A stretch of 64,000 nucleotides of DNA, taken from NCBI RefSeq assembly GCF_964355755.1, contig NC_092670.1, positions 15,189,201 to 15,253,200 of the forward strand, written 5' to 3'. Made by a program: the position numbers and the translations under genes. How positions within the stretch are numbered: the first letter of the stretch is position 1; every line of letters starts with the position of its first letter. Shown piece by piece: positions 14,369 through 63,552 of this stretch. Source of the stretch: Antedon mediterranea. Its lineage: Eukaryota; Echinodermata; Crinoidea; Comatulida; Antedonidae. The notes beneath the pieces were generated by a model, which saw nothing but the letters and a program-made list of their open reading frames with translations, made no database searches and had not been told where the DNA came from.

Positions 14369-15108
14369 TTATTTCATGACATCATCGTCTACTTGCACTT
14401 CCAAGAAAGCCTGGGTCACCACATCAGTGGCACTTCTCTTTCTTCGTCGTACGGCGGCCGAATTACAACTTTGCTGAGAGTTTAAAATCTTGCAATGCGA
14501 TTGGTTGTTTTTTGGATTGCATGTTACAAATGAACACGTTACCCACACCTAATAATAATAAATATAACTTAATGAGGAGTCTATCCATGACAGTGGCTGC
14601 TGTATGAGGTAACCCTCTACTCGTCTCGAAAAATGTACTGGATTGGATGAAGTGCACATGAGCTAGATGTGTAGGCCTACACTGGGCCTACGATTTATAT
14701 AGTCCTTATCCGAGAAGACTCGTTCTACCACCAGAATCATAGAGCGGGTGAGCATCGAACTTAATTGCCATAACTTGGCTGGACTACGGTTCCACTGTCT
14801 CAAACGCGCAGACAAACACTCACTCACTTTTTTTTAAAGTTTATTTTTGTAGGCCTATGTTATTTTAATGTTAAATTTAATTTACTTAATAAAACTAAAC
14901 AGGGTCTAAATCTTGATTTCAGAAATTTCACACTCTAACTAAAACTTGGTATAAAACTGATTCTGGGTCATGTTTGTCCACCTTTTAAAAATGTTTACTT
15001 ACTGCGTCTTTCAAGCCATGGTTAATCATTGCAAATGTCTTGATAGAAAATTCTCTCCGAGCAGCAAACCCAAACCCATGAAAAATGATGGTATCATCCA
15101 CTGGACAA

Positions 15109-16308
15109 CTATATCAACACAAAACAAGAGAGAACAACTGTGAACCACTAACAAATACACACAAAAGAAAACAATGAAACAGAAACAAAATCAAGAGTTG
15201 ATTGAATTGTAAATTGTTATTGGCCATGTAGCCTAATAATTTATAGAAATCTCATTACATTTCCGCCTTTTAAAATCAATTTAAGTTTTGCTTTTTTTTT
15301 TTAATTTTGACAGCCATGTCTGAATCTGTTTTAAATAAGCTTGAAGGAGTATTAATATATTTATATCCTTTTTGTAAATTGATTGACAGTATGCCACGCT
15401 AGCATATTTATTCAATGGTGCTAAATCTACAGTAATACAGTATATAAATAAAAATGTAATTTTCATTATTCTCCTTCTAGTATTTTTGTACCATTCCACG
15501 AACATAAACATTCATTATTTGTTTTATATAACATCTAAATAGATTCCGGTCATTTGAATCAGATTGAATAATAGGCCTACATTTGATTCTTGGGTCTAAC
15601 TTAGTACGGTATCTCTTTAAAAATTCCGTCGCGATACGACGAGAGTGCACTGTTTTTGTATTGTTTAAAAATAGGCGGCGCTGTTGGATTTTACGTTCAG
15701 AATCACTGTTATGGTCTTTCCCATTTTTTTTCGTACGTGAAAAGTACTATTTAACAATCGTTGAATAGTGCGCACTATTTGCATGCCATGTGACCCACAA
15801 TCGAAATTTAGTTAAGTTTTATATAATATCAAATACCTGTACTGTATCAAATAAACCATGTCACACACATATGTGTGTATGTATACGGTAGGCCTATGTA
15901 TATATGATTTATTAATATTATGTTAAAGAGAAAAAAAATTATGTTATAAAATGTATATATCTGGTTACTTAATTAAAACAATTACATTCAGTTACTAGAT
16001 TGGTTACAGCATTTACCAAATTAATAATTGATTAATAATTAATAATTAATTATTATTTACTTTAAAAAAATGGAATTAATAATTTATACTTTTTAATATT
16101 GTTTGATCATTGTAAGTTACTTTATTTAAACGTTCATATTTCTTTGATATCTATTACTTTATGTGATTTTGTGTTATGGTTGTATTTTTTTAAATGAATT
16201 AAAAAAAATAATAATAAAAAAAAAAATAAACCATGTCACACACGGCTTTGATTTTACTCTAAACCTATTTATGTAATTTGTCTATGAATATGTAAGAGGA
16301 TGTCTTAC
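15109..16308 (-). other. Gene A intron 12, no gene seen
   Basis: AT-rich intron with A-runs and ATTAAT repeats (16020-16060, 16200-16235). A TAGGCCTAC octamer occurs near 15573. No exon or element boundary recognised. Confidence 0.5.
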
Positions 16309-17402
16309 CCATCTACGATAAATTCAAACTTCTTATCAAATTTGGTACAAGATTTATACTTTGGCGTTGCACTGCAGCTCTCAATTGCAACCTCTTTACC
16401 ACTGTCATGTGCTCTGGCGGCAAAATACAAAGTATCGTTAAAATCCATCTCCTTCTCTGTGCCGTATTCTACCTTGTCTTCATAGCGTCTGTCTTCGTAG
16501 AGAGCTCCAGCACAGCTTCCAATCGTGTCTTTGATTCGACCTTACTGGATTCTAACGATGTGTCTGGACTAAAGTAAACGTTGGCAATCCCAACCCCTTC
16601 GACCTCACAGATAATTTTGATGTTCACCTTCCGTTTTTTGCGGGTTATCAGTTTACTTGTTTGATAAGGTTCTGGATCATCTCTCAAGATGTTGATAAAT
16701 CGAGTGATATCTGACGATTTTTTCTGTAAAAACATATTTTATGTTATTTGATAATATTGTTACTGATTGCAATAGTTATTATTCTGTTCATACATGAGAG
16801 TGCACAATGTGCAGCCTATCACACTATGTTGTGGCAACAACTAACCTAAAAAACATTAACTGCAATTACTTTGCTTTTAGGACTTGTCTAGTCTGTGAAT
16901 TAAATCCTTGCTTTCCGTCACTCTTATTGCCGTTTTTTTTGGTTTGAATATAAATGTCAAAAATAATATCCGAATTAGGTATTTAGAGTAAACAAATTCC
17001 CACTATAGAACCTTTGCTTGTCCCAATGCGCCTTATCAATTCGGTCATACGGTACAATTTTTGGAAAATGGTTGCATTAGCCTATCAACATGGAAGTGCT
17101 ATAAGGCTGCTCTAAGAAAACATTTACCTTGATGTAAGTTCCACAGGAATCATAGGCAAACTTAATGATTAGATGCGTTCCATTATCAATACTCTTACAC
17201 CGTCGGTCTATCAAATGTAGCTCATTCACCGACTTGTCATTGGCATACGACTTTGGAACAGACGCAGTGATCTCTGACTGACCACAGTCAACCGTTGGAG
17301 GATTTGCTTTAAACAAAAGATAACACTGTACAATAATACAGTTCTGTCTACACTATCAAACTTAATGAGACAATAAAGTGATATGGACGCAATGACGTCA
17401 TA

Positions 17403-17883
17403 ATAGGGAGGTTTCGCAACCTTACGAATACGATAACGAAAACGGATACGTCACGCACACGTATTCGTTTTCGCATGCCAACGAAATATTGAGGGGCGTC
17501 CAAAATATGACTGCGGTAAATTTGAGCGAAGCGCAGGTACGTGTTGCTTGGTGCTTGGCTGCCTAGGCCTAGCGTAGCATCAAAGCGAGTGAAGACTTTA
17601 AAAACTGCTATTTATCAAAATTGACTTGGCATTTTAGTAAATTACTTTAGTAAATTACTTTCAATAAATCTATAATTATATTATAATCATGAATCATTCC
17701 TGATTCAAATGCAAAATGTGCAAATAGATCAAAACCTATACTCGTTTTGTGGTTACGAATATGACTGGTGATATTCGTCAACACGAATACGCTTTACGAA
17801 TATGAAATGGGGATCAGCTCAAAAGTTTCACAAATGTATGACGTATCCGTTTTCGTTATCGTATGGTTGCGAAACCTCCCTAT
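17403..17883 (+). mobile_element. MITE-2, copy 1 (in gene A intron 10)
   Basis: Terminal inverted repeats: ATAGGGAGGTTTCGCAACC at the left and GGTTGCGAAACCTCCCTAT at the right, with subterminal GATAACGAAAACGGATACGT inverted as well. It is flanked on both sides by TA (17401-17402 and 17884-17885), consistent with TA target-site duplication as in Tc1/mariner-type elements. It is inserted inside a MITE-1 copy: GACGTCA lies to the left and CTACCACTTT to the right. Confidence 0.85.
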
Positions 17884-18066
17884 TACTACCACTTTCTTTT
17901 AAACTAAATATAATTATATTAAATTCAGTAAACTAAAGACTGCGGAATTAAGGCATGATTGTACTTTCAAATTAAGATTAACCTATCACAGGATCGATGG
18001 CTATTTATGACAATTTATTATGCCACTCATAGTTTTTAATATCTTTATTTAAGTTTTCGATATTTA

Positions 18067-18587
18067 ATAGGGAGGTTTCGCAACCTTACGAATACGATAA
18101 CGAAAACGGATACGTCACACATTTGTGAAACTTTTGAGCTGATCCCCATTTCATATTTGTAAAGCGTATTCGTGTTGACGAATATCACCAGTCATATTCG
18201 TAACTACAAAACGAGTAGGCCTATAGTTTTTGATCTATTTTGCACATTTTGCATTTGAATCATGAATGATTCATGATTATAATATAATTATAGGCCTACT
18301 TTTATTGAAAGTAATTTACTAAAGTAATTTACTAAAATTCCAGGTATAAATAGCAGTTTTTAAAGTCCTCACTCGCTTTGGTGTTACGCTAGGCCTAGGC
18401 AGCCAAGCACCAAGCAACACGTACCTGCGCTTCGCTCAAATTTACCGCAGTCATATTTTGGACGGCGTCCTCAATATTTCGTTGCCATGCGAAACAGATT
18501 TTTACTGGCTTACGAAAAACGAATACGTGTGCGTGACGTATCCGTTTTCGTTATCGTATTCGTACCGTAAGATTGCGAAAACTCTAT
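18067..18587 (-). mobile_element. MITE-2, copy 2, inverted relative to copy 1
   Basis: Same element as 17403-17883 in reverse orientation: internal GCCAAGCACCAAGCAACACG here is the reverse complement of CGTGTTGCTTGGTGCTTGGC there. The left TIR is intact, the right degenerate (GCGAAAACTCTAT); TA dinucleotides flank both ends. It lies 183 bp from copy 1 in the same intron. Confidence 0.85.
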
Positions 18588-19384
18588 TACCGATGAATCA
18601 ACAGGCGAATAAGTGACATACAAGGTCGTTATGTTGATATAGACAGTCTCAAAGTTTCAATTTGGTTTTTATCCATAACTAATTAGATAATTTTCATTAG
18701 AATATCAAAATGATGTGTACCATGGTAACTTTCGTACCAAACTTAATCATACATTTGTAATATTTACAATACTTACAAACATTAAAGCCAATTTTTGATG
18801 GATCTGACGTGGTTTCAGCAGTACCATGACAAAATGCGGAGTAATTGGTGACTGAAAAACCTCCATCTATATCTATAACATAACGGTTTCCAGCTTTTAT
18901 GTCTTTTGGCGCTTTATATCGAAGTTTTGTAGGATCGTCGGAAAGAAATTCTACTTCATCCGAATTGGCAGCGTCATAGCTGATTAATTGTTGGTTATCC
19001 GTTAAATCAAGTACGCGAATGTATACAGGTTTTTCTGGTCTTGAAACCTTAAATAATAGTGGTAAACGAAAATGTAATATGGTTACATATATAAAGGATT
19101 ACTCAATGTATTTATTGTTCTAGTTATTTAACCAAATACTATCTCTTTTTCCACTTACTAACTAAGCGCGTTATTGCCGGTACTGTATGAATTTAAAAAA
19201 AGTGGAATAATAGTGTATGAGGTTACATTACCGGTTTATCGAACTTAATGAACCAGTATTTTACTGTTTCCTTCAATAGGCTATTGGTAGCTGGGTACGA
19301 TTCGGCATCTAAAACATTTGGAATCGGTGGTTTTCGAACGGATTTGTCATCTACAAAAAAAAAGATATAAATAGTGTGATGGTA

Positions 19385-19575
19385 AGTAAGTAAGTAATAT
19401 TTATTGCTTTCCAAGAACAGTACAAATTTATAAAACAGTATAATGTAAATGATATAAAAAGAGAAAACATTAAATATAATAATACAAGACTAAACTGGAA
19501 AATAAGCATTGAAAGCAGGGGATGGCCCTTTAAGCCCAGAGGCTTGTTTCCAAAGGGGTCCCCAAATGGCGCTAG
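19385..19575 (-). repeat. LINE/SINE-like 3' end in gene A intron 8
   Basis: GTAAGTAAGTAAGTAATATT followed by TTATTGCTTTCCAAGAACAG and later GGCCCTTTAAGCCCAGAGGC. Reverse-complemented, this reads as an AT-rich 3' end with a short tandem tail, typical of LINE 3' termini. Family not identified. Confidence 0.35.
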
Positions 19576-22130
19576 TTAATATTATGCATTATTAAAGAAT
19601 GATTACTATACAGTATAAAATACGGTATTACGGCGTAGACGCGATTATCACGCTTCATTTGTTGGTAGAGTGTATACGTGAACATAATGCCATACCCATG
19701 TGTTGCATTTTGTAACAGTGTCATCGTAGTTGAAGACAATATGAAATCGGGAATTGCCGTCTGAGAACCTGATGTGTCATTGCTTTCGATTTGTGAACAT
19801 TCGCCTAATGGAATAGAGGCTTGAATGCAAAATTATTGTAATAACAATTCTTTACCTGTAACTAACACTTTTCCAGCGACAGACTCTCCTTGCAATCTTT
19901 AGGGAAAAAAAAAAGTTAAATCAGGTATTTGCCAGAGCCATAGCCAATGTGGTATAAACTTTATATTATGTAGTATTTATTTTATCGCCACACTTCAAGC
20001 TGTAACACAAGCTTCATAGAACTTTTAAACATATGTGCTTGAAATGTAAGTTGATCGAATTTAACCTATAAGTTATTTTATACCGATAAAAATTGGTACA
20101 AAGAAATATTTTTCATACCCAAAATCGTCAGTAGCAGTTATAGTGTATTCATATATTCCAAGTTTATTGGTTTGAAATGAAAGAGTGCTCTGAACAAATC
20201 TACCTGGCGGAGGAATATCTTCAGTGTGTGACATGCCTTTTGGTAAAATATACGTCATCTCTTCAACTCTGTATAAAACAACAACAAATAATTGTATTCG
20301 ATGATATAACAAAGGAATTATTTTATTGTCCAAATTATTACGAAATTTTGAATTTTGTTCTTGTGTTTAAAAGAGAAACAACGAGGTTACAGTATTTTAT
20401 TGGGAAGATTCCAGAAACTGCAATACTTAAAATAGAATAGGAATACGGCTGTAGATAAAAATCGAGAAAAATGACACACTGATTTCCATCCGATTCTTCT
20501 GGTAGATTCGCAGAAACGGTATTCTTCCATTTTCCACCTGGTCGAATAATGGAACATTCCTCTTCTAACGTCACTTGTGGTCCAGTACAACTTCCGGCTA
20601 AAAATAACCATATATATTGTTTTGTAGATTAGATAAATTATATAATTCTCTTTTAGTTAAAGACAATGTTCTAGATATGTTTTCATATTTAAGTTTACTA
20701 TAAAGTTAAATGCTACTTTGTATTGATTTTTGAATAAGATTTAAAAATATAAATAAAATAACTGTCGTTACGGACGGATGTTGTTATGGTTATATAACCA
20801 TTTTTCTGGTCTCATAAACCTTTCTATTTTATACAACTTTCATTGACGATTCGTAAGCAGAACTATTTTTCAAGTTAAGTTTCTCTTCTGTACTTTCAGC
20901 AGACAAACATCGAAACGCCGACTGGTTGACTATAACATAAAAAAAGACTAGACTACTGTACAAGTCTAGTTTCCGTATTGGGAGAGTTAATTGTACTATA
21001 CTAACGTTCAGTAAGTTGAATAAGAAACTGGTACGGCACTTTACTCTTGGGTGTTGTTGAACCCTCGTCGTCGAAATCTTCAACCATTACGGATACGCCA
21101 TAGTAATTTCCCGCAGGGTGATAAACGTATTCTCCCTTTGTTTGAAATTTTACTAAGCACTTTTTCTAAAATGAAATAAATTTATTTTAAAGACAATATT
21201 TTCACCCTGAAAAAATAATTGTTACAGTGTTTTTGTTGAATACCATTTAAATGGCAAATAATAGTTATTCACTTTGACCAGAAAAAAAAACCAAAAATAT
21301 AATAAAGATTTTTTCTTCTAAAGAAGTGATTAACTTTATTGAAACTGTGAACTGCTTATTCAAAGTTGTTTTTGTGTTGTTAATCTTAATTTTTCAAGTT
21401 TTCGGGGAACAATACATCTTTAAGGGATTACATATGCAGTGATTGAAACAATGCGAACTCTTTTGGAAAAATGTAATCGAATTTATAATAGAAATCGTGA
21501 ATTGATGGTCAGTCAAAATTTTTTCCCACAAAAATGAAAATGAGGATTAGCAAAATCAAACTTTGTAGTTTAAAGAAAGTCAATTAAAGTAGAAAAAAAA
21601 ACCACAAATATTTCTCTTATAAAAATACAAAATAAACGGTTAGATTTAACAAAAAAAATCATTTAGGTTAGACCTACTGCGCATGTAGAAGAGAATTTAT
21701 GCCTACCTCATAAATGGTTGCATTAATTGGATCTTTACTTGGGTCACCACAGACACGGAGTGTATTAGTATCACCTGGGCATTCATGTTTATTTGGATCA
21801 GCCCAGCGACATCTGACTATATCACCGTCGGGATCACTTGCTGAACAAGAAACACAAAATGTAACATTAGGCCTACTAGTATGCCTACGATAGGATACAA
21901 CGTAAAACTGAATGAATTTCATTGATAGAACTTCATTATTCATCTCGTATTTATTCTCTTGCATATTTCAACAAGTTCAGTTGATTCTAAATTCAAAAAG
22001 TTTTAAATATGAATGGTAGCATTTTAATTGGTGATATTGGTTAATTGGAACATGGAGGTATAATTGGAAGTACATCTACCACAGTGAGATGATTAGTTTC
22101 AAAGAGTGGCGCCGTGAATGTATCAAATAA

Positions 22131-22332
22131 AGCCCGTTTTCCTGTCGACGTTATTCGATGCTATCGTTACAATAATCGGCAATCTTCTACGTAAACATTG
22201 AAATGTTAACGATTTACAGGAAAAGGTACTCACTATCGTTATCATTTCAATTTTATCGTTTTCAAACGATCGTCTTGAACTGTTAACGATCAACGACGAT
22301 AGCGTCGAATAACGTCGACAGGAAAACAGGCT
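22131..22332. mobile_element. Palindromic MITE in gene A intron 3
   Basis: Ends AGCCCGTTTTCCTGTCGACG and CGTCGACAGGAAAACAGGCT are inverted repeats, extended by TTATTCGATGCTATCGTT / AACGATAGCGTCGAATAA-like subterminal arms. About 200 bp, non-coding, full-length foldback shape. Confidence 0.75.
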
Positions 22333-23774
22333 TAAGATGTCTAATGTAGACCTACCCATCATCTATTAACAATTTAATTGGTCAGTAAACGCTGAACTGG
22401 TTAGTTATTGCTACAAACAAAGAGCGTTTAATATAATTGTTATGATTTTTACCTTTCAGGTCAATTAACAGTTCACATCCTTGTCGTACACGATAGAGTG
22501 GAAGTCCAGCCGTTACGCGGGGAGAGTTATTGTCAATAGATAGGTCCACATGGCTCAGTAAATTCCAACATCTTCCAGGATCGAAATTTTGCAGATATAG
22601 CCAACTACTGTCTGTACATGACCCTTCGGTTTCATAGCTGAATAAAATTAGATATTACGTCTCTGCCACTGATGGTAAAAGACTACATTATTGATTTTAG
22701 GGCCGCAAAAGCTATTCCATCACGGTAGCTTTCCACGCAAAACCTTTCAAACAAGTGCTACCACTCGATTTCCTGACCCAAAATTCAAACCAAACCTATT
22801 AAATGTATTGTTCTGTTTTTAGTACAATGTATAATGAGTATATAGGCTAATTACAGAAAAATAAATCAAAATATTTATAAACTTACCTCATTGTAAATTC
22901 ACTACTTTTCACCTTATACTTATAAGAACCTTTAAACAGATTCCAATCATTTTCTGAGCTGGTAGCAATACAGGTTAATGGAAGGCGTTTTATAATTTCT
23001 TGATCATAAACGGAACACGTCTTGCATTTTAACATGTTCGAATCTTCGGCCAGAATCTGGGATCCCACGAATTCACAAGGGTAGGTCCCTTCACTCTTTT
23101 TAAACGACAAACGCCAGAAAAATTCAACCTAACATTTTAAAAAATGATTAAGTTTGGAATACAATCATTAACAATACAATGTGAGTTTCAAATTTAAAAC
23201 ATTAGGAGTCAAGTGGGGGTACACCAACCATGCACTTTGTGCAGTGTTCATCCATTACAATGCATATATTCTTATTCATATTTTTTATACTGTTCTGGTC
23301 GTAACATTTACAATAATCTACAGTATTATCATAAATTAAAATTTAAGTAATAACGTTTTAGTTATCATTATGTGCCTACCTTTCGGTAAAATATAAACAA
23401 ATAATTGGTGCAGGCCTACCTTCTTGTTGTTTATTTTCTCCCAGTAGAATGTTCCTCCGCGGTAATGAACTGCTTGCGCCGACTGAGAAAGTGCACATAC
23501 TAACACCAGTAAACCCACCAATTGCATGGTGAATCAAAACTACAGCCTACAATACATATAAACAAAACATGAATAAATATCAATATCATTAAAAAAAAAA
23601 TTATACTAATATTATTAAATACAAATGTATTCAACAAGATTTGGTTCAGATTTGGTTCCTAGTTTCATATAATAAAAATAAAATTAACCATTCAATATCA
23701 TTATAAACTGATTTAATTAAGCATTGTAGTAGCTGGTCCTACTTTCAACATTTTCAGTTAAAATAAAAAAATAC

Positions 23775-23870: not shown

Positions 23871-23890
23871 ATGAATAATCTCTTCATTGT

Positions 23891-24011
23891 CCTTTTATAT
23901 TGTATAAAATCTGTGTAAACGATGTTTCCAAACCTCCATGGTATTAAACAATAATACATTGAGTATTAAATTAATTTTCCAATTCTCGTTGATATTGATT
24001 TACATTGAAAA
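23891..24011 (-). promoter_or_regulatory. Gene A promoter module
   Basis: On the minus strand a TATAAAAGG box (23891-23899) is preceded by a GTTTACACAGATTTTAT element (23902-23920). Further up is a block whose plus-strand form is TTTTCCAATTCTCGTTGATA then TTGATTTACATT (23974-24011), with AAACAATAAT nearby. The same order and spacing of blocks occurs upstream of genes B and C. Confidence 0.6.
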
Positions 24012-24407
24012 CAAGACGATAATTGCAACAATATTGTTTAAAAATAATCAACCAATTATTTATCAATTCTAATGCGTTTTTAAATCCAAATTAAATGAAA
24101 TTTGATACGTCATTTGTATATCACTTATCAGCGTTCCGTATGTTTAGGTCTTTAATTTCAATCAAATATAAAATAACATAAACATGGAAAGTCTTGGTTT
24201 ATGCAAAACCAGCTGCCAAAACGTATACACATCGATTCAAGTGTAATTATTACCGCTTGCCGCATTAAATATAGCTTGAACCATGTAAACAGACACGTGG
24301 CTCTCATAACGGATATTCATACAAACGCCCGTTTGTTCTTCCATTGGTGGACTTGGGACCACTTTTAAGCGCACCAATCAACCACACCAACCGTTAGAGG
24401 ATATTAC

Positions 24408-24512: not shown

Positions 24513-24526
24513 AGGGCACCTTTTTA

Positions 24527-26292: not shown

Positions 26293-29200
26293 TTATTCCA
26301 TGAAATCAGAGTCTATTTGCACTTCCAAGAAAGCCTGGGTCACCGCATCGGTGGCACTTCTCTTTCTTCGTCGTATGGCGGCCGAATTACAACTCTCCTG
26401 GGAGTTTAAAATCCTGCAATACGATTGGTTGTTAGTTGGATCACATGTAACAAATGAACACGTTACCCAGACCTGCCAATAATAAAAGTATATTAACGAC
26501 AATGTTATATGCAAGCAAATGAAAAGCAAGTGAAAATACGAGTAGTGAACTATTCCAAATTTCTGATATTTTTTAATATTAGTCCTCTGTTCAATATAGA
26601 TAATGTTACTTCTGTTTATGGTACGTTTGGTTAACATAATTTCAAATTGAAAGTTTGCAAAGCTTTGAAACAGATTATTGGTCATTATAATGGAATCTGA
26701 CCCATAGTCAATATACTATTGCACTTACCGCGTCGTCTAAGCCATAGTTAATCATCGCAAATGTCTTGATAGAAAAGCGTCTCTGAGCAAACGACCCAGA
26801 CCCATAAAACATGACGGTATCATCCACTGGACAACTATATCAAGAAAAAACAAGACAAAACAGTGGAAACAAAAATCAACTAAAAGACAATTAAAAGTAA
26901 ACAGTAACATCAATAACCCACTAATTCGACAGTTAAACACTGAAATTAACAGCAGTAAAACATTAGAAAGCTACTCCGAGAGTGCATACATCTGCCTACT
27001 GTAAAATTCTCCTACATAAGATTTCTCCGGGGGAAAAAAAATATATATATATATACATTTTTAATTATTACTGCACACGTAATCATCAAGTTTGATTTTT
27101 ATCGTTTTTTTAACAACATCCGTTTCTGAAGCTTGTAGGTATATTAATATATTTATATACATTGTGCGAATTGATAGAACAGTGTGCTACAATACCAAAT
27201 ATATAATAATTATATCAATAATGATATTTAGCCAATGGTATTGTAATGATAAATTCTGTGATACAGTATCAAATGTGATGCATAGGTCATAGAAACAATG
27301 TTTTACTTACCCGTCTTTGATAAATTCAAACTTCTTATCAAATTTGGTACAAGATTTGTACTTTGGCGTTGCCCTGCAGCTCTCAATTGCAACCTCTTTA
27401 CCACTGTCGTGTGCTCTGGCGGCAAAATACAAGGTATCTTTAAAATCCACCTCCTTCTCTGTGCCGTATTCCACCTTGTCGTTATAGCCATTGTCTTCGT
27501 AGAGCTCCAGCATTGATTCCAATCTTGTCTTTGATAGGAACTTACTGGATTCTACCGATGTGTCTGGATTGAAGTAAACGTTGGCAATCCCAACCCCTTC
27601 GACCTCACAGATAATTTTGATGTTCACCTTCCGTTTTTCGCGGGTTATCAGTTTACTTGTTTGATAAGGCTCTGGATCATCTCTCAAGATGTTGATAAAT
27701 CGAGTGATATCTGAGGATTTTTTCTGTGAAAACATTTTAAATGTTATTGCCAATTGGAAAATCAGTTAAACCCATCAGAACACGTGGCGTAATTAAATTG
27801 CTTTTAGTGAAAGACCATATTTAATTACTTTCATTGTACAGTATTGGATACCAAGAAACACCACTGGTCTGGCTTAAGCCTTTATTGAAAAAAAAAATTC
27901 ATAATAGCAAACAATTTGAATTGATTTCAAACTTGAACGAAAGCATTTACCTTGATGTAAGTGCCACATGAATCGTACGCAAACTTAATGATTAGATGCG
28001 TTCCATTATCATTACTCTTACACCGTGGGTCTATCAGATGTAGCTTATTCACCGACTTGTCATTGGCGTATGATTTTGGAACAGACGCAGTGATTTCTGA
28101 CTGATCACATTCAACAGTTGGTTCTGGCGGAGTTGCTATATGTTTAAAGTTAATCAGAAATATTGTGGTGTAATCATTTATATTTATATTGTTTCCAATT
28201 CAATTAAATTAAATTTATTTCAGAAGATACCGTACATTATTATGTAATAAAATATATGAGAGTAGAACAACAGAGCACACAGTTTATCATTCCAGGGAGA
28301 CTACCAAATGTGATGTTATAATGTGTATCGAGTGATTAAGTTACTAGTGAAAATCATTGGTCATGTATTATGATGCGTCTGCATTATTGTACGTGAAGCC
28401 TATTCCCCTTTAATGACTTTGGCTTCTGGTACTTTTGATATCTTAAAAGAAGTACTCTATTCGGGTTTTCCAAAAATAATTGAAGAGAACTACATATCTG
28501 AAGCCCAACGTAAATATTACTACAATACAAAAGGTAAACCTAAGCTATCAGTAGCTATTGACAACACTTACGAATACTGAAGGGATACGCTGATGTGTCT
28601 GAATTGACTACTGCAGCGAGTTCACAAAATGTCGAGTATTTGACAACTGATAAACCTTCTTCTATTTGTAACGCATATGTTTGTCCGGGTTGTAAGTTTT
28701 TTGGCGCTTTATACCGCGCTATTGTAGGATTGTCTGCAGGAAATTCTACCTCATCCGGATTTGCTGAGTCATATGTGGCGTATGTTTTCCTGAATCTATT
28801 ATCCAAAACCGTAATATATGCAGATTTTTCCGGTCTTGAAACCTGTACACATTGTTGAAACATAAATTGGTTACAAATCTACAATGGATAATCAGAGTAC
28901 AGCTGTCTGTCTGCGAACACCAAACACATTGAATCCACGTGTGTAGTAAAAGTAGAAGTATAGGCCTACATTCGTGTCCATGTAAGAGAGATACTACTGA
29001 ATAATAATAAATAATCATGAGGATACGTACCGGTCCATCAAACTGAATAAACCAGTACTCTCTGGTTTCATCCAGTTGGCTATTGGAAGCTGGGTAAGAT
29101 TCGTCATTGAGCACCTGTGGATGCGGTGGTGGTTTAATAACGGTTTCATCATCTACAAAAAAACAAACATTTAAATAAACTTGTAAATTCTGTCTAAAAA

Positions 29201-47600: not shown

Positions 47601-50600
47601 CTGTACGTACTCGATCTTTTTCATTTTGAAACAAAATGATCATTGGTTGATTCGAAATCCATATTTACATACCGCCCGCCCCATATAGCCAAATACGGTA
47701 TGATAACCTACGTCATTCTTATCGGATGTTTGCGGTCTGCAAATCGATTTCTATACGTGTTTCACAAGTCTGTATTTTCAGACAAAAATCGCGGCCGAAA
47801 TAAAACAAATAAATAAAAAACCAGTATCAGGTGGAGGCCTGAATGGTCGAGCGCCTTTCAAACGCCGAACATACATACTTCATAACTGGCTTGATGATAT
47901 CGGGATCATTTGCACTCATAATAAATATAAACTTATCATTTTGTGACATATTTTTTAAGTTTAGATTAAAATCTAGATCCGAGAATAATGCCGTTCTGAT
48001 GTCATCATAAATGGGGCAATATAGCATGAAGTGGATCTCATCTTCAATATCGCCACCTTTGCAAAGAGTACACAATCTATTGTTTGCATCTGTTTTGGGA
48101 ATTGTGTAGCGACCTCTCTCGATTTCGAGAGCATGCGCACTTACTCTTAGCTTGCTAAACTGACATCTTTTATTTCTTTTATATAATAACGTATAATTCT
48201 CTATACAGAAGGACTTTTTATATGTACAAAAGGATCGTAATTTAGGTTGATGGTTTTGTATCATGTTAAGTCATTGGTTATCATACTTTTTATGTATTTT
48301 CGATAAAATATTTAAGTTAAAATTAATGTTTACATTAATATGTGTTGCCTCGATAGATTCCAGAATACGTCGTATTCCAGAGGACCATGTAAAGCCTTTT
48401 TGGCATGCGTACTGTGTGTCTAATTTTCTATTCTCCGAAAGGGCATCAATAACCAGTGAATCAATCCCATTGTAACACATGTTATTTAATTTTAAACAGT
48501 ATTTAATGGAAGAACATAGCAATGAAATTAGAATTAGATATGAGCCTATTCTCCTCTAATAGCATGGTTGGATGCTTTTTTGTTTACTCCAAGCATATCT
48601 TTGCATATTTTATAGTGCAAGTGAAGGAATTTGGATAACGGCATAGCATAAGAACAAGAATAAAAGAAATACAACAAAAGAAGAAAGGGTGGTAAATGGT
48701 GGGTGGGGACTGAATAAGAGTAGAAAACAAAGAAGTTAGCTTGGTAGTAGAGATACAAAATTTTGGAATGAAACTAAAAAACAGCCTAAATGGCGGTTAA
48801 TATTGAAACTTAAATTTTGGTAGTCAATGGAATAATTTTACCGATCTGGAAGTATGTTCCTAATATATATATACACTGATGAAGGGCATTTTGGGTATAT
48901 ATATATATATATATATATAAATCCAAAGGCAAATTACTGAAAAAAATGACAATGCTGTGGGTATCAGTGGCTGGATCTCAATAGAGATACAAAAAAAAAA
49001 AGCGAAAAGCTAAATCAAAACGATAAAGTAAACAGCCAGAAAAGTTAGCAGAGCTTTCAGGCAACACTAGTCCTTCATCAGTGCAAGTGAGGGAATTTGG
49101 ATAAAGTCATAGCATATGAGTTGGCAAGTGCTGCCTGGGTGGACAGGAATAAAAGAAATATAACAATAGAAACAGCGTGTTGAATAGTGGGTGGAGACTG
49201 AATAAGAGTAGAAAACAAAGAAGGTAGCTTGGTAGAGATATAAAAAATTTTTGAATGGAACTAAAAAAAGGTAAAATGGTGGTTAATATTGAAACTTAAA
49301 TTTTGGTAGTCAATGGAATAATTTTACCGATCTGGGAGTATGTTCCTAATGTTAATTCCAAAAGGTTTTGTGGTGTTAAGTAGTAATTCCCAGTGGTTTT
49401 CTTTGTCTTTGTGAGTTTTTTCGCTCCATTTGACATCGTGGTCTATTGCAATAACTCTGAAATTTGCAATCGAGTGACCAGCTGAATTAAAATGTTCGGC
49501 TACAGGTTGATCAAGCTTTATTGTTTTGATAGCTGATCTATGTTGTGTCATTCTCATACGGAGAGTGTTTTTTGTTTCTCCGACGTACTGTTTGCCACAA
49601 ATATTACAGTATATGAGATAAATGACGTTTTTGGTTAGACAATTAATTGATTGTCTTATCCGAAAAATGCGGCCAGTATGAGTATATATATATATATATA
49701 TATTGCACTGATGAAGTGTAGCCAGAGTTTAACATAATCGTTAGAGTTATTTGTATTTGGGTAGCTATATCTAAATATAAACAACTCACGGTTAAGATCG
49801 ATAACTCTGTTACAGCCTTGTCTGACTCGATGAACTGGTAAACCAGCCATAACTCTTGGAGAATTGTTGTTTAATATGATTGAAGTGTCAACTTTGGTTA
49901 TTAGTGACCAACATTTTCCACCGGCGGTACCGTAGTTTTGAAGGTAAATCCAACTACTATCTTTACAGTCTACTTTTGTTTTAAAACTGAAAAAAATAAT
50001 GAAGATAATAATATAAAACTCTTGTTTTCTTTTTTAGAACAAGGCCATATACATGGCTGCAGTCACGTGCGAAAATTTGAGTTAGTGTTTACCAAACATT
50101 TAGTGTTTACCAACCGACCGACATAGTGAGCTATAGAGTCGCGTTGCACGCGACTAAAAATACTATTTTCTAAATGTTTACAATGTCGTTTATGTTTATT
50201 AAATAAAACGTTTGTGCATTTCACTAATAATGATGCTCTAATTAAAACAACAGGCCCATATCCAGGATTTTTGTAGATTAGTTCAAATTTGAAAAAAGAG
50301 ATACACTTGCGGGCCAATGCAAATAATCGTGGGTCTGATGTAAGATTTTGTAGTCTTGTGATTGATAACTCAGCCCAACAGTGATTATGCAATTCGTCAT
50401 CTACAGTATACCTATCGTGTAAGAGGATAAGTTTCCGTTCAAACGAATCATAGGCTGCTGTTTAGCTTATTTTTAAAGAAACTGTCGAGACTTTAAACAA
50501 ACAAATTATACTCCTGAAAATATAATTTTTTATTTAAAAAAAATAGGAAATATTAATTAAGAATAAGAGGTCCGAAAACGAAAATTATTTCCTATGTGTT

Positions 50601-51088
50601 TAATTTATTTAGTTGACAATTTTAATGTTATTTTGGTGCCAAGCGGAGCCTTATAGCAAACAGCAGAGTTCCTGGCTACCGGCCTGAACAAGGTTTATTA
50701 TGAGTACTAAATGAACACGAACATGTAGGCCTACTTACGCCAATGTGAATACCTCGCGGTCTGCCTTATAATCAACGTATCCATCAAAAAGACTCCATTT
50801 CATCTCTTCTGAAGTGAATGAACATTTAATATTTAGTGGTGAAGAAATTATTTTATTTTCACGGCAGTCTGTACAGGTCAAAGCAAGAGATGTTTCTGAT
50901 TCCCTTTGTTGTCCAATAGAATCACAAAAATACTCGTCAAAAAAGTCTTCTTTTTTTTCAAATGCGAGACGCCAAAAAATACGGATATGTTTGTTGCCAA
51001 GTCGTTCCCAGTAAAACGTGCCACCACGATAGTGAGTAGCGTACACCCCAGCTACCACCAAAACCATAAAGAGTACCAGAGTCCTCAT
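35676..51088 (-). CDS. Gene C: secreted HYRGG-ZP protein, intact
   Basis: Thirteen coding exons: 51088-50739, 49986-49790, 43157-43024, 42850-42703, 41336-41222, 41063-40923, 40245-40208, 39997-39873, 39770-39497, 39322-39129, 38557-38163, 37806-37710, 35843-35676. They join in frame to 791 residues. Signal peptide 1-17 (MRTLVLFMVLVVAGVYA), then THYRGGTFYWERL and a Cys-containing domain (to about 116); DGDPVKCRWT segment (about 183-227); beta-sandwich segments with FSFTAIDDNG near 360; ZP-N about 508-572 (VECGNSKIKV, LHLHDKKC, YYECGTSIK); ZP-C about 573-736 (IICEMIGDGI, AIDSCKAM, GCGIDQSVVI); then RRRR at 769-772 (furin-type) and a 20-residue tail with no membrane span. Exon 1 is 350 nt, equal to exons 1+2 of A (108+242) and D (105+245), so one intron is missing. 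Probably secreted and polymerised through the ZP module; role unknown. Intron 2 (49789-43158) is packed with mobile elements. Confidence 0.87.
35844..37709 (-). other. Gene C last intron
   Basis: No coding sequence recognised. Two adjacent hairpins occur at 36981-37005 and 37010-37052. The short open frame at 36620-36886 shows no family resemblance. Confidence 0.5.
36981..37052. repeat. Two adjacent GC-rich hairpins
   Basis: First: TGATTGCG ... CGCAATCA around GGGCGCCCT. Second: TTGACAGCGTGAG (37010-37022) and CTCACGCTGTCAA (37040-37052), a perfect 13-nt stem. They stand out in AT-rich intron sequence. Confidence 0.65.
37854..37982. mobile_element. MITE-1 family copy (gene C intron)
   Basis: AAAGCTCTGTCTACACTATC at the left, ATTGTAGACAGAGCTTT at the right, about 129 bp. 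Immediately followed by a family 3 repeat. Confidence 0.75.
37990..38095 (-). repeat. Dispersed repeat family 3, copy 2 (inverted)
   Basis: TTTTAGTCGCGTGCAAACGC, then CAGCTCACTATGTCAGTCGG and GGTAAACACTAACTCAAATT. Reverse complement of the copies at 993-1098 and 50039-50158. It abuts gene C exon 38557-38163 within about 70 bp. Confidence 0.7.
40555..40745 (-). repeat. LINE/SINE-like 3' end (gene C intron)
   Basis: On the minus strand the sequence runs from an ATCTTAAAGTTTAAGCTTCC block to GAAATAAAATTGATTGATA and an A/T-rich tail, the shape of a LINE 3' terminus with TGAT repeats, as at 10690-10930. Confidence 0.4.
43197..43234. repeat. Perfect palindrome
   Basis: ATATATATCATGGAGTAAT is followed by its exact reverse complement ATTACTCCATGATATATAT. 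Confidence 0.75.
43701..43764. repeat. 32-bp perfect tandem duplication
   Basis: The unit beginning ATAAATTTACGTAAGGGCAA occurs twice without change (43701-43732, 43733-43764). Confidence 0.9.
45128..45164. repeat. Perfect hairpin followed by T run
   Basis: CTAGATGGTACGC and GCGTACCATCTAG flank an 11-base loop GAGCGAAGCGA and are followed by TTTTTTT. The loop itself is nearly self-complementary (GCGAAGCG). Confidence 0.75.
46283..47584. mobile_element. Candidate 1.3-kb element bounded by 33-bp inverted repeats
   Basis: ATGGATTAAAGAATAGAAGG... (46283-46315) is exactly matched in reverse complement at 47552-47584. The interior is more GC/CpG-rich than its surroundings. It holds three CCAAT-type motifs (46871, 46902, 46949), a consensus donor ACGGTGAGT near 47080 and a short ATG frame (47371-47418, MPPKNARKKRSSQQG). 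No transposase frame is seen. A non-autonomous element that captured a gene's promoter and first exons is one reading; chance inverted duplication is another. Confidence 0.5.
47827..48525 (-). mobile_element. LINE ORF2 C-terminal fragment
   Basis: Two minus-strand frames: 48522-48271 (…LCSSIKYCLKLNNMCYNGID) and 48264-47827 (KLRVSAHALEIERGRYTIPK, NRLCTLCKGGDIEDEIHFML, YCPIYDDIRTALF). The second carries the CxxC...HFxxxCPxY zinc-knuckle-like ending of many LINE-type polymerase proteins. The break between the frames near 48265 marks it as inactive. Confidence 0.7.
48575..48890 (-). mobile_element. Penelope-like element, partial first copy
   Basis: Shares with 49080-49345 the blocks GGAATTTGGATAA, ACTGAATAAGAGTAGAAAAC, AACTTAAATTTTGGTAGTCA and ATAATTTTACCGATCTGG in the same order. 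It is cut off at AAGTATGTTCCTAAT, where the second copy continues into coding sequence, so it resembles the partial tandem copies usual for Penelope elements. Confidence 0.65.
49046..49081 (-). ncRNA. Hammerhead-ribozyme-like core in Penelope-like element
   Basis: On the minus strand CTGATGA is followed by AGG, a 10-nt loop, CCT, then GAAAGC, TCT, GCTA. This gives the conserved CUGAUGA and GAAA boxes, a 3-bp stem II (AGG/CCU) and a minimal stem III (AGC/GCU) closing on U-A. Penelope-like elements are known to carry such minimal hammerheads. Stem I is not obvious from the immediate flanks (first pair would be A-A), so activity is doubtful. Confidence 0.4.
49324..49680 (-). mobile_element. Penelope-like element GIY-YIG endonuclease fragment
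   Basis: The minus-strand frame from about 49680 to the stop at 49324 contains NVIYLIYCNICGKQYVGETK, then TLRMRMTQHRSAI, VAEHFNSAGHS, and ends GINIRNILPDR. The YLIYC...YVGET...R...H pattern is the GIY-YIG endonuclease (here IYC/YVG) at the C-terminus of Penelope-like retroelements. The reverse transcriptase part is missing. Confidence 0.8.
50039..50158 (+). repeat. Dispersed repeat family 3, copy 3 (gene C intron 1)
   Basis: ACAAGGCCATATACATGGCT, GAGTTAGTGTTTACCAA (partly duplicated) and GCGTTGCACGCGACTAAAAA. Same orientation as 993-1098. Confidence 0.7.
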
Positions 51089-51807: not shown

Positions 51808-51813
51808 GGAATA

Positions 51814-53375: not shown

Positions 53376-53400
53376 AATAAACAAACTGTGTAAAATTCTC

Positions 53401-56337: not shown

Positions 56338-59300
56338 TTACATTCTAAATGTCATGAATGTATCATGTTCTTCTTCAAAGTTTCCGATACTTCGGCGACG
56401 TCTGGAGCAGTTACCACGCTTGATGTCAGCACAACGTGAACTACTTGCTCCAGGCTTACACGATACCATCTTACATTTCACAAATACCTAGAAAAAAAGC
56501 AAGTGTTTTGTTCATGTTATAAACTAGTTTGCTTTAGTAGTAGTAGTTCGGCTGCAGTCTAAATTAATCTTTTTTTATTCAATATAACTCTGGAAATTAG
56601 AGTAGACTAGTAGCCTAAAAGTATGAATAAATAGCAAATCTCAACAGTCTCGAATAATACAGTATTAGTAATATTAAAAAAATATCAATGTGATAGTATC
56701 TTTTTGTTATGTAATATAATTGCATGATATCTGTCCACCAACATCCCAATACCCACCCTCTCCCTTGGGTTATGGGTTAGTTGCAATATACAGTATTTTA
56801 TGAACAGTAGTTCAATCATTCTTTTTTCAAAAATAAAAATGTGTACAAAAGAAAGTTTACATTCAATCCAGGTTAATGTTACAATTAAAATACACGTAAA
56901 TATACAAAAGATACAACTACAGATAAAAAATATTTTACAGTCATCATCATCATGATCTATTAACCCTATATATAACCTGTATAATCACACGTCAGGGCCG
57001 TATTAGATATGGTTTTCTTTAATTCTTAAATTGGGATGTATTAAGTTTAAGCATTAATTTAAGCCGAATTTTGTTTCTTCTATTTTTATACTTCCTGCTT
57101 CTAACTTTGAAACAAATTAATTTACCCAGTATAAATATAAATTTCAATCAATTCAATTCAAGTTCAACGTATTAGAACATTTTTATTTACAGGACATTCC
57201 CACGTACATCCTTTGCATTTGAGTATATCATCACTACTTTTAAACAAAGACAGACTCTTACCTCGTTAGTTAAGCCATATTGCAGGAATCCAAAAGATTT
57301 AATAGAGAAACGGTGATCCAAACCAGAAGGAGTAAGACTGACGGATGAGTCTACACCACACCTAAATAACCAAGAAAGACGGAGAATTACTTTGATTATA
57401 ATTAACAATGTGTTCTTAGGCACTGTTGAGCATAGTCTTGTCCTCCTTTGTCGTTTAATGCTGGAACGTTTACAACCAATTATACGCCATGGCAAACAAA
57501 ACTGTTATCCAGAATTTCAAAATGGAGCGCGCACGCGCATGAGAATATCACTAGGAAAAAATGTGTTTTAGAACAATGATGCCAATGATGTCCAAATTAT
57601 TTATTAAATAATTATCAAGTCAAGTCAATGAAAATCCTATTTCGTATATTACAATTTAATAGTAAAATTAATATTCACTTCGACAAAGTAGTAGTTAATA
57701 GATATTGAATATTTGACAAATATTAATAAGCTAAATGAGTAAAGAATATGAAGAAAAGTGTAATAAAAGTATAGTAATCATCGTACCCGTTTTCAATGAA
57801 TGTGTATTTCTTGTCATTCTCTGTGCATGTTCCGAATTTAGCCATTGCTTTGCAGCTTTCGATTGCAACGTCCTTTGAAGCTGTGCTCTTCGCAGAAAAG
57901 TACAACGTTTCTTTGAGTTCAACTGATGCAGTTCCAGTGATGTCTTTGTTGTAACTTGAGTCTTCATACATCTTAAGATAAGTCTTAAACTCTCCAGTTG
58001 CTTTGTATTTTTCAGGGTTAACAGCTGCTGCTGGTTTGAAGAATACGTCATTAACACCAACTCCTCTCATTTCACAAATAATTTGCATCTCAACCTTATG
58101 CTTTGCTCGGGTTACTGGTGCACCTGGAAAGATTGGTTTAGGGTCGTCTCGGATTGTGTTGTAGAATTTAGTTTTCGATTTTGATGAACGCTGGAAAAAA
58201 AGCAAACTGATTATACTAACATGTTTTAAATCAATTTATTATTAATAACTTAATAATGATTTAACTATCAACTACTGTACAGAGTTCAGTTTAGTTTTAA
58301 AGAGAAGAAGCTAACTAGATTCTATATACGATAATATTGTTACACAACGGCCAATAAAAAGAAACATTTTTAATTTTTAAATTCATTAATAGCACAATTG
58401 ATACCTTAATGATAGTTCCGCACTCATCATAACCAAACTCAATCGTGTAGTACATTGGGTCATTATCCTGAATTCTGCATCTTGTGTCGTGAAGGTGAAG
58501 CTCACTTGCTGGAATGTTATTCACGTATGTTTTAGGGATGCTAACTTTTATGTAAGAATCACCACATTCTACTTCTGGCTCTGGTGGCTTAGCTATAGAA
58601 AATGAGAAAATAAAACTTTTTTCTTAGATGTATATTTGAAACCATTCCTACAATAAAACGAGATGCTTTTGATTTTATTGCATAATTTTGTTAGAGGCAG
58701 TTTATACAGCCGGTTATTTCTTTCATTTTTCTATCGTTAAAGAACTAAACATTACTGTCATTGGTATTATTGTCACTTACGGATGTCAAACTTGTATATC
58801 CCTTCATCACTGACAGCCTTGGCACTGCGGCCACATGGAGTTTCCCAGACTCGCTCACCGAAACCTGCCTCAACATTTACAAGATAGCCTTTGCCTCCTT
58901 CTAGTCCAGTTGGTGCTGGGTATTGGACAATCGTTGGATCACTTTTTGGGAACCTTACTACATCTTTGTCAACAGCATTATACTTGGTAATTACATTCCC
59001 TTTCAAGTCTAAAATTTTGATGAGTGACTTGGATTCTGGACGTGTAACCTATAAAATAAAGTAAAATGATATATATAATATTGGCGTAGACCTATTTTAT
59101 TCATATAGCGTTGATATTTTATACTGGCTCTATTTTCTGACGCCATACCTGGGTTCTCCAGCATAAATTACGGTATGCAAAATTAGTTATATATTTGTAT
59201 TTAATTACAGGAAAGTCTTCATAGAGTGATTAAGTTCGCTTCTGAAAATCCATAGCATTTTATTACTTTGTAAAGTTGTGCCAAAATTGAATAAATCAAA

Positions 59301-62300
59301 TAAAAAAATCAATCCACAAATACCAACAATTAACAATGTGTATCCAGTTTGCAATGCATTACGTCATTCTGTAGTAACTAGCGCCATCATCAAACGTCAT
59401 ATTTTAACCGTGAATACTTGTATACTTACGGGTGCATCAAATTTAATTGTCCAAAGTTCCTCTGTTCCCTCGTACACTGAGTTGATAACTGGTGTCGATT
59501 GATCTGGTAGAATTGCAGGGGGGTCTAATTTATTTTCCATGGGAAGACCATCAGCTAAACCAACAATAAAGTACAAAGTATCGTTAAATAAATTATAGAC
59601 AAGTTATGATTTTAGAAAGCAAAATATTTTGTAAAAATCAGAAATAATACAAATTTTTACATTTCAAAATAGGTTAATATGAACTTTTTAAGCAAAAAGA
59701 TTCCGCGGTTAGAGACACAACCAATGACACAATCACTAACATACAGAAAACATCGCAAACACAAGATGCCTTACACAACATATTAAAACACGTTTTTGGC
59801 AGTGAAGTTGAACAACATGTCGTGAGAAAATATCTGGTTGCGTTTAGAAACCTGTAGCCATAGATCAATAGACAAGGATCTAAACCCACAAGTTACAACT
59901 TAACTAAATAAATCAATAAAGATTTCCATAACATTGTTGCAACCTTGCTGAACGCCCTACTTCCCGCTGATGGGACTCTAATACTAAGCAGTGTAGTAGA
60001 GTCCTCTGATGACCCGAGTAAGCAAGATAATAAGATAAGATGATAAAGCACAAATAATCATGTCAACTTACCTGACACAATCAAACGTCCAGATTTGGGA
60101 TCATTTTGAACACTGTAAATTAATTGAAAGTGTTTATAAGTACTGTACACAATATAGACCGACATAATTGATTGGTTTATTCTTTCTAAAAGTTGCTAAT
60201 GCGTTGTTAGTATAATATGTTGTGCAACACGAGATGGCCCTCATCCGAAACTTACAAAACTAAGACCTTATTATGCCACTTACCCATTATCATCAGTAGC
60301 TGTGAAACTGAATACATAGGTACCTTCTTTTTTAGGTTTAAAAGAAAGTTTGGCTTTGACAACCTTCTGGCTTGGTTTTGAACCGCTAACGTATTCCATT
60401 TTCATTCCATTTGGATAACTGCCTTGGATTTCAGTTATACTGAAAATATATTAACAATGTCAGTATTGCAAGTATATGCAATATCAGTATTTACAATAAA
60501 AATCAAATAAAAATAAATACTATAATATAAAAAGAAGCATAATAATAATAAAAAAAATCAATATAAGTGTCAATTCGTTCTGATTGTCTATTATAGGCCT
60601 AGATTATCAATCTTATATATATATATCGTTTCAAATTATCACCGGGCGGTTTAGAATTAATGTTCTATGCCTATACAAACATGTACAACAATTTCAATTT
60701 AAAAAAAAACAATTACATACGTTGATGCATCAGAGCCCTTTTGTATTGACGCAGTAACGAAACTGTTCCAAGTTTCTCCAGGAGCAATCACGCTGCACTC
60801 CTCTAGATCAATCTTTGGTCCTACACATGATCCAGCTAGTGAAGAGAAAAAACATCAATTTAATAATAATAAATTATGCCTATATTAATTGTTTATGATA
60901 TTCCTCAATACAGTGAATCCCACAACAAAACAACGTAGACAGAACAAGTGAGTTCATTAATCAAGTTAGTTATTACAGAGATTTACATTCAGAGACAGTT
61001 ATTTACCCTAGGAAGATCCTAACAACAGAACAGGAGTGTATGTATAGTCAGTAAAATCGTAACCCAACAAAATTTAACTTACGTGCAGTAACATCAAGAA
61101 GAAATTGGAATGGAACTGTGCTCTTAGCTTTACTGTAAGTTTTATCTGGAAAATCTTCGATCATTACGGAAGCGCCATACCATCCTTGCAAATCATCTTC
61201 TCCGGTAATAAACTCGATCTTGCATTCTTCCTAAAATTAAGTTTACCATTTACATTTACAATTTATGTTCATGGTTTCCTTTCTTATTATACTTACCATA
61301 AATGTTTTTCTCATACAAAAATATACTCGAACGCACCAAAGGACAACAGCATAATTATATACCTGATAAAGTTTTGTCAATGATGTTGCTTGTCCACATA
61401 CACGATTCACATCGTTACTATCTCGACCTTCTGGACATTCGTCGTTATTCGCCCATCGACATTTTGTCGGGTCTTCGTTTATATCAATGGCTGAAAGATT
61501 AAGGTGACGAAATAAATGAGATACTGTATAAGTGTTGAAATACTGTGTTTTAGTTATATTTTCTAAATTACTCTTTCATCTATCTTCAGAGAGAGCATAC
61601 GCATTGTTCTGTCTCTTTTTAGCATTACAACACTTACGGTTAAGGTCGATAAGTCTCTTGCAACCATGTCTGACTCTATACACTGGTAAACCAGCTGTAA
61701 CTCGTGGAGAGTCGTTTTTTATCGAAGTGTCAACTTTAGTCAAAAGTGACCAACACTTGCCAGGACCGTAATTTTCCAGCTTAATCCAGCTGCTGTCGGA
61801 ACACATGCCAGTTGTCTTAAATCTAAAAACAAAAACAAAACAAAAACAAAGTATAATTAATTGTTTTGCATCAAAGTCAATACTATATTGTATAATAATA
61901 TTAACATGTTTAGTCTTCTCAACGTACTTAATGTATGTACAAAATTACGCCAGAGTACAGTAGGACAAACATCGGATCAATTACTCAACTTCAGTTAATG
62001 CATAGTAGGTAATTGCAATTATAATGCCAACATGAATATTTCTTCGTATAGCGCTCGTAACGAAAGCAATGAACTTTCTATTTCCAACAAGATCAGATAG
62101 ATGTAAACACCAAGTCATGTTAATAAAAATAAACTACTTACGCCATAATGAATTCTTTACGGTCTGCCGTATAATCCACGTATCCATCTAGAAGACTCCA
62201 TCCCATTTCTTGTGAAATGGAAGTACATTCAAGTTTTAGTGGGGTTAAGATGGTCTGGTTGGTACCACAATCGATACATGTTAAAGCAAGAAGGTTTTCG

Positions 62301-63552
62301 GCAATCAGGTTGTCTCCTATTTCGTTGCAATAGTATTCTGGGTAATAGTTAATCAACTGGAAAGATAGACGCCAGAAAACACGTACCTATTGAAAACAAA
62401 TTCACATCATAATCAGGAATTATAACAAAATGATAATACTCTTTACTTTGGACGCAAGTAATTTGACCAATCACAACGTGATGGAGCATCCGAATTGTGG
62501 ATTGTGATTGATTAAATAACTTGCGTTTATACTACTATTATTATTACTATTTAGGCGTACATAAGAAAATGAATATTTAAGTCCAACAGAAATAACATTG
62601 AACTAAGATTATAAATGATAACAATGTCCAATGTTCAAATCCTACATACAGTGAACTTTTATATCGATTCGTGTTTCATTCATTCATTTATTCAATAGTA
62701 TGTAGGCCACTGCCACAAATACAATAAGAGTTAATAATACATAATAATTACATTTAAGGAAGCCTAATAGTAATAGCAACATAATTATTAGTTCTCTTTT
62801 TATATGCGAGTAAATTATTTTAAAACAATCAATATTTAAAAACAGACTTGAGAATACCACAGGGATACAATATTTTAAAAGCAACATATAAGAACATCAA
62901 TAATACTATAAAAATTACTTGATACTGGTTCCAATAATTACTTAAATTATGCAAAAAAAACTGGCTAAAAAAATTTTTTTTCTGACTTTACTATGCTCAA
63001 TTGATTTCAATTAAGATTATTCAGCGTTATACAACCTGATCGAGTAAGGAACAACGGATTTTTTATATCTCTCGGTTCTACATCTGATAGATCATACAGA
63101 TCATTTATCTTGGAGCGCATTTTATGATAATTACTATATAACGGGTGTTTTGCATCTTCCTGATATATTTCTGGTTAAGACCTATAATATTTCATGACTA
63201 AAACCATCTATATCTTAACAAAGAATAAACCTAGTCTAGTCTAGAACTCACAGGTTAAAACCTATCAATGTACGACTTTTATAAACACAAATTATAGCAT
63301 AGGATTTGATCGAGGAATTGGGGAACTTATGAACTTAATTTAACTCACAGTTATTGTCCATACCAATATATAATGGGCAATGGATATACAATACAAAGAA
63401 CTACATAAATTATGCCTGTTCTCGAGTTTGTAAGAAAATCAAGGTACCTTAGCTTTTCCGAGTCTTTCATAGTAGAACGTACCGCCACGGTAGTGAGTAG
63501 CGTACACCTCAGCTACCATAAACACCATCGCTAAGAGCACCAAACTTCTCAT
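56338..63552 (-). CDS. Gene D: secreted HYRGG-ZP protein, intact
   Basis: Fourteen coding exons: 63552-63448, 62386-62142, 61822-61638, 61490-61363, 61230-61083, 60835-60721, 60439-60284, 60112-60072, 59554-59430, 59048-58781, 58592-58405, 58190-57787, 57361-57262, 56487-56338. They join in frame to 785 residues. Signal peptide MRSLVLLAMVFMVAEVYA, then THYRGGTFYYERL; NEDPTKCRWA segment; FSFTATDDNG segment ending exon 7; PESKSLIKILDL segment (exon 10); ZP-N (exon 11: VECGDSYIKVSI, LHLHDTRC, YDECGTIIK); ZP-C (exons 12-13: IICEMRGVGV, IESCKAM, GCGVDSSVSL, FSIKSFGF); exon 14 has four Cys, then SRRRRS (furin type, about 764-769) and a 17-residue tail with no membrane span. Closest to gene C (shared PASELHLHD, YKATGxFKxYLKMYEDS, TFMTFxM). 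Likely a secreted ZP-module matrix protein. Confidence 0.87.
62455..62526. mobile_element. Family 2 MITE remnant (gene D intron 1)
   Basis: GACGCAAGTAATTTGACCAA and TGATTGATTAAATAACTTGCGT form an imperfect inverted repeat around a CGTGATGGAGCATCCGAA centre like that of 4611-4742. Confidence 0.55.

Follow-up and report, generated by a model that had tools for sequence, protein, structure and literature searches.

A tandem array of secreted ZP-module genes in an echinoderm, with an intronless copy and a candidate role in the egg coat

Gene layout and lesions in the array

The window, a 64-kb stretch with a GC content of 33% (C1:15189201-15253200, from the 354-Mb assembly of 18 contigs that we searched), carries four matching exon series on its minus strand when compared with itself by tblastn. 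These are genes A to D, all on the minus strand and together extending from 63552 to 14369. The initial annotation had proposed four same-strand genes, and this is borne out, with the start codon of A and the stop codon of D exactly where it had placed them. Exon-by-exon, paralogue-guided splice modelling yields 14 coding exons with phase pairs identical among the copies, so the exon layout described as shared stands as 14 phase-matched exons, except that B has 13 (intron 1 is absent) and C is without exon 2.

Gene A (56338..63552, minus strand) is intact and encodes 785 aa according to the paralogue-guided splice model and Pfam, with exons at 63552-63448, 62386-62142, 61822-61638, 61490-61363, 61230-61083, 60835-60721, 60439-60284, 60112-60072, 59554-59430, 59048-58781, 58592-58405, 58190-57787, 57361-57262 and 56487-56338. 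Gene B (35676..51088, minus strand), supported by Pfam and by an intronless copy, L001, that matches its junctions, is likewise intact and encodes 791 aa in 13 exons (51088-50739, 49986-49790, 43157-43024, 42850-42703, 41336-41222, 41063-40923, 40245-40208, 39997-39873, 39770-39497, 39322-39129, 38557-38163, 37806-37710 and 35843-35676). Its first exon (50739..51088, minus strand) is a fusion of exons 1 and 2 from which intron 1 is precisely absent, and the same intron is exactly missing in copy G, outside the window. The large intron between the second and third exons of B contains a GIY-YIG domain fragment (49327-49728, minus strand, E=7e-5), which is likely a remnant of a Penelope-like retroelement.

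Exons 7 and 9 had incompatible phases, and a micro-exon was therefore sought between them by comparing all AG..GT intervals of fitting length in the four copies, and the top-scoring pairs were C/D and A/B. The resulting exon 8 encodes 13 aa: VQNDPKSGRLIVS in A (60072-60112), VQSDPTSARVHV in B (40208-40245), LQGKSVSGKIEVT in C (29762-29802) and LQGESVAGKVLVT in D (19856-19896), all on the minus strand. It also corrects the TATDD(F/N)GY segment initially described: TATDD or TAIDD is present, but the 'Y' of TATDDFGY is intron read-through, and the true continuation is the micro-exon, (V/L)Q....

Genes C and D carry lesions. In gene C (26293..33691, minus strand), exon 1 lies at 33691-33584 and is followed by exons at 33091-32907, 32444-32311, 31398-31242, 30618-30501, 30163-30014, 29802-29762, 29152-29031, 28842-28572, 28135-27951, 27723-27311, 26834-26729 and 26472-26293. 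The interval expected to hold exon 2 (33092..33583, minus strand) has none, and tblastn of the window against itself found no match to it between 33584 and 33091. Exons 1 and 3 differ in phase (0 and 1, respectively), so their direct junction disrupts the frame; only splicing to 33126, a weak cryptic acceptor, would preserve it. Gene D (14369..23527, minus strand) has exons at 23527-23420, 23128-22887, 22637-22453, 21840-21707, 21165-21006, 20597-20480, 20268-20119, 19896-19856, 19350-19232, 19047-18777, 17306-17128, 16723-16309, 15108-15003 and 14548-14369. Its exon 12 contains a 2-nt (CT) insertion at ~16502 (within 16490..16510, minus strand; CTCTCT in D versus CTC in C), through which the ZP-C reading frame is lost. 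These lesions could be pseudogenisation, allelic variants or assembly errors. The earlier description of four large secreted genes holds for the intact A and B and was overstated for C and D. An intron of D also contains a long inverted repeat (17497-18464, arms of 126 and 119 nt, 97-98% complementary), probably a foldback element.

Protein architecture

Exon 1 of A (63448..63552, minus strand) encodes a signal peptide that ends in VYA and has its hydropathy maximum at residue 1, followed by the mature N-terminus THYRGGTFY. We infer cleavage after VYA, and the HYRGG segment noted initially proves to be the start of the mature protein. The CRW segment is also present, but A reads DINEDPTKCRW, so the DxDGD-CRW form does not extend to all four genes. 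The ~275 N-terminal residues contain twelve conserved cysteines and match no Pfam family, and no named Pfam domain was matched within the N-terminal ~500 aa; this ~500-aa architecture could be defined as a new domain. A non-exhaustive scan for two conserved motifs across 84,980 prokaryote species found no prokaryotic relatives of the region. AlphaFold models the N-terminal unit encoded by B exon 1 as beta-rich (pLDDT 70). Structure searches with this unit gave a best Foldseek E of 0.1 and a best VIA-align Z of 5.8, to phage tail-terminator proteins, which is in the range typical of unrelated models, and we assign it no fold relative.

By the dN comparison, the protein varies most in the Ig-like (Big_5-like) unit encoded by exons 9-10 of A (58781..59554, minus strand). 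The exon 10 model has its best Foldseek match in CopC (E 0.023), a protein with an Ig-like fold, which is at most suggestive. The middle segment of K, an older family member, matches Big_5 (E=0.032) and K319L-like PKD (E=0.014) in Pfam, both under the curated cut-off.

Exons 11-13 of A (57262..58592, minus strand) encode ZP-N, linker and ZP-C (PF23344 and PF00100; residues 515-609 and 633-755), and Pfam thus confirms the ZP module assigned to these exons at the outset. ZP-N matches in A (6.6e-11), B (4.2e-9), C (1.9e-7) and D (1.2e-7) are all above the curated cut-off, as is that of K, and ZP-C is matched above the cut-off in A (7.2e-14), B (2.2e-14), K (6.2e-17) and M (1.3e-15). The ZP-C of C is alignable, yet falls under the PF00100 threshold; the frameshifted ZP-C of D was excluded from the query. 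Exon 14 of A (56338..56487, minus strand) supplies the end of ZP-C, a furin-type site (RRRR) and a 17-aa tail ending in TFMTFRM, with no transmembrane segment. Each of the 10 proteins examined has a furin-type R-X-[KR]-R followed by a short tail with hydrophobic residues, and beyond the signal peptide no further hydrophobic stretch in any of them is long enough to form a membrane helix. The combination first proposed, a ZP module with a furin-type site and no membrane anchor, is borne out by these features. LDLa, vWFA, D8C and EGF had no Pfam match in the A-D proteins, nor had the window's open reading frames at 10-12 kb or its other small ones any Pfam match.

Against solved structures, protein B has one significant match, to GP2 (8xc5, E=3e-7), covering the ZP module only. 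GP2 and uromodulin carry EGF/D8C domains and a GPI anchor; they share the ZP-N/ZP-C module with the array proteins, whereas the latter have neither an EGF/D8C match in Pfam nor a C-terminal hydrophobic segment for a GPI anchor. The GP2 match points towards a mucosal, gut or body-surface ZP polymer that would act as a decoy or barrier against microbes, as GP2 and uromodulin do, with duplication driven by microbial variety. Set against this, the similarity is limited to a module common to all ZP proteins, and D8C and EGF domains went unmatched; we regard such a role as the main rival to the egg coat, possible but on the whole unlikely.

Egg-coat proteins offer a different set of comparisons. Amphioxus BbZP1-5 are also encoded by clustered genes in a deuterostome and have a signal peptide and a C-terminal ZP module, and the egg-coat proteins BbZP3 and BbZP4 combine that module with a furin site and no transmembrane segment (PMC3543715). 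They differ at the front, which is LDLa plus vWFA there and unnamed cysteine-rich and Ig-like segments in the array proteins. Abalone VERL/VEZP are egg-coat proteins of the ZP family that have duplicated and whose front part evolves fast (PMC13361971). The array proteins are likewise a duplicated ZP family with a variable front, although the front of VERL consists of tandem ZP-N repeats and that of the array proteins of other Ig-like units, with a single ZP-N.

The wider family and an intronless copy of B

Copies beyond the 64 kb, for which the initial annotation had suggested looking, were found: the array does not stop at four genes but continues ~70 kb past the window, to ~15.323 Mb, with copies E, F and H intact and G rearranged. 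In G, exons 1-5 are B-like and exons 6-14 A-like, and there is an internal repeat; orphan C-type exon 1 pieces lie between array copies. E and F each sit in one half of a segmental duplication of 12.4 kb with 98.7% identity (C1:15254767-15267136 and 15284082-15296440), which could also be a haplotype duplication in the assembly; its edge lies inside exon 2, and so the two proteins differ mainly in their N-terminal part. Contig C7 carries an older member, J, and C1:31.92-31.94 Mb two more, K and M, whose exons 8 and 9 are fused. Loci that diverge further are found at C1:25.8, 35.3, 35.5, 36.1 and 37.7 Mb, some of them weak matches only.

In the tree, A groups with E/F/H, B with L001, C with D and K with M. 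The C/D pair proposed initially is therefore recovered, but A and B are not sisters, their nearest relatives being copies beyond the window for A and L001 for B. Local duplication with divergence of a secreted ZP family, as first suggested, is borne out. Our search of the literature found no description of this family.

When protein A was searched against the whole genome, one uninterrupted match appeared, spanning residues 2-785, on contig C3. This locus, L001, is a 792-codon open frame without introns (1498-3849 of L001) and an intact intronless copy of B. Its DNA aligns to every B exon at ~85-95% identity, in pieces that end at predicted exon ends, and it reproduces junctions such as 50739|49986, 49790|43157 and 37710|35843. 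L001 is thus a natural cDNA that independently supports the exon joins, and it answers the refuting condition named at the outset, transcripts in which these exons are not joined.

Downstream, homology between L001 and B breaks off in a run of nine As (A9) that is absent from B, and upstream it reaches ~0.9 kb before the ATG, with one local inversion; no clear target-site duplication was seen at L001. Given this upstream homology, L001 may have brought its own promoter. Upstream of B, the sequence at window 51411-51640 is inverted relative to that upstream of L001. A short sequence ~0.45-0.78 kb before the ATGs is common to B, C, D and L001 (window 51702-51871, 34254-34339 and 23974-24030) and is a possible promoter or first non-coding exon.

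L001 could derive either from a far-upstream start of the parent transcript or from a DNA copy that lost its introns by recombination with cDNA, and either origin requires reverse transcription of spliced mRNA in the germline. The reverse-transcription model of intron loss has germline expression among its predictions, and to be heritable, retrocopies and intron losses of this type need germline transcription (PMC3652778).

B and L001 differ by 231 substitutions and 7 indels, all 7 of which are in frame, and by 161 amino-acid differences (~20% of residues), with no cysteine changed. In a neutral simulation with half the substitutions (one lineage), 4.4 stops arose on average and 1.3% of runs had none (P ~0.013). 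At the level of sequence, L001 looks like a retained, functional-looking retrogene.

Pairwise dN/dS is ~0.9 for B versus L001 and 0.2-0.5 for other pairs; it is never clearly above 1, so positive selection is not demonstrated. For B and L001, the value of ~0.9, taken with the intact reading frame, is suggestive of a mixture of constraint and relaxed or diversifying change. Among A, E and H, and between C and D, dN is highest in exons 9-10 (0.15-0.38) and is 0.02-0.08 in ZP-N/ZP-C. The ZP exons have dN/dS of mostly 0.1-0.3, and if the other parts are simply looser, the proteins might form a structural ZP matrix with no part in sperm recognition, such as a larval or adult cuticle or a cortical-granule or fertilisation-envelope material, in which copies serve dosage and variation reflects relaxed constraint. 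Tolerance of the broken copies C and D would fit such a matrix, but L001 keeps its cysteines and frame despite ~20% residue replacement, which is more than dosage needs, and we consider this explanation improbable. Still further from what we would expect is an array of mostly dying duplicates with no current role: C without exon 2, the frameshifted D and the rearranged G speak for decay, whereas A, B, E, F, H, K, M and L001 have full open frames over their exons, and cysteines and frame are under constraint.

Proposed egg-coat role and the bindin neighbour

Furin removal of a hydrophobic-patch propeptide permits ZP proteins to polymerise. By analogy, the signal peptide would direct each array protein into the secretory pathway, with a predicted layout of a cysteine-rich, beta-rich N-terminal region (mature start THYRGG), PKD/Ig-like and Big_5-like units and ZP-N/linker/ZP-C, ending in R-X-[KR]-R and a hydrophobic tail of ~17-30 aa without a membrane anchor. 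Furin-type cleavage would free the tail, a putative blocking hydrophobic patch, whereupon the ZP-N units could assemble into filaments with the variable front part exposed, in a matrix that may be an egg coat (vitelline layer or jelly). Our preferred reading is a family evolving by birth and death whose products are secreted, activated by furin and serve as subunits of a ZP polymer, with the egg coat as the most likely role, at a probability of roughly 55%. We base this assignment on the reverse transcription of the mRNAs in the germline, the ZP/furin/no-anchor design, which is also that of known egg-coat subunits, and the fact that sequence divergence lies mainly outside the ZP module; linkage to bindin adds a little weight.

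Several points weigh against it. Matrices of the gut, epidermis and cuticle are also built with ZP proteins, and a gene with no gamete function could give rise to retrocopies if it were transcribed in the germline at a low level. Host-microbe conflict at a mucosal surface would equally account for gene turnover and a diversified front half, though germline reverse transcription is less expected of a gut-restricted gene. The fast-evolving coat or gamete-surface role suggested initially is compatible with the sequence evidence, and is strengthened by the retrogene, the echinoderm host and the bindin neighbour.

The genome search for bindin returned one match (L050, C1:15552813-15555145), with a PF02084 core (E=2.3e-28; DLPVDINDPYDLGLLLRHLRHHSDLLANIENPAV) and an upstream exon rich in basic repeats. 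Bindin being the sperm protein of echinoderms, this match identifies the host as a member of that phylum; COX1 was not found in the assembly. The bindin gene and the array share a contig and are separated by 230,005 bp. A random position falls this near the array with a chance of 0.16%, and this near any of ten family clusters with a chance of at most 1.4%, in a comparison made post hoc for a family concentrated on C1. We take the linkage as a lead only, to a possible linked sperm-egg pair. The characterised sea urchin bindin receptors, the 350-kDa protein and EBR1, are not known to be ZP proteins, which counts against the egg-coat reading, and EBR1 is built of TSP1/CUB modules. Both have been described as receptors for sea urchin bindin (PMC4866015). 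EBR1 resembles the array proteins as a candidate bindin partner on the egg surface in the same phylum and differs in its TSP1/CUB rather than ZP composition, the bindin partnership of the array proteins being putative.

A stronger version, in which sperm recognise egg-coat proteins by their variable N-terminal and Ig-like parts, with the array kept near bindin as a co-inherited mate-recognition block, seems to us very unlikely. Such a block would be comparable to the linked sperm and egg recognition genes s-/v-Themis of Ciona (PMC8849226), and, if true, male ligand and female coat would be inherited together. Linkage of sperm and egg recognition genes becomes directly testable across echinoderm assemblies. 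A multi-copy, actively recombining ZP family in which the polymerising end is conserved and the front varies, with a retained retrogene and bindin nearby, forms a candidate set for the echinoderm egg coat.

A separate cluster of ~8 ZP-C matches at C10:21.41-21.51 Mb is apparently another ZP gene family. The palindrome TAGGCCTA occurs in 75 copies in 144 kb (the window plus C1:15253201-15333200), versus 1.4 expected from base composition.
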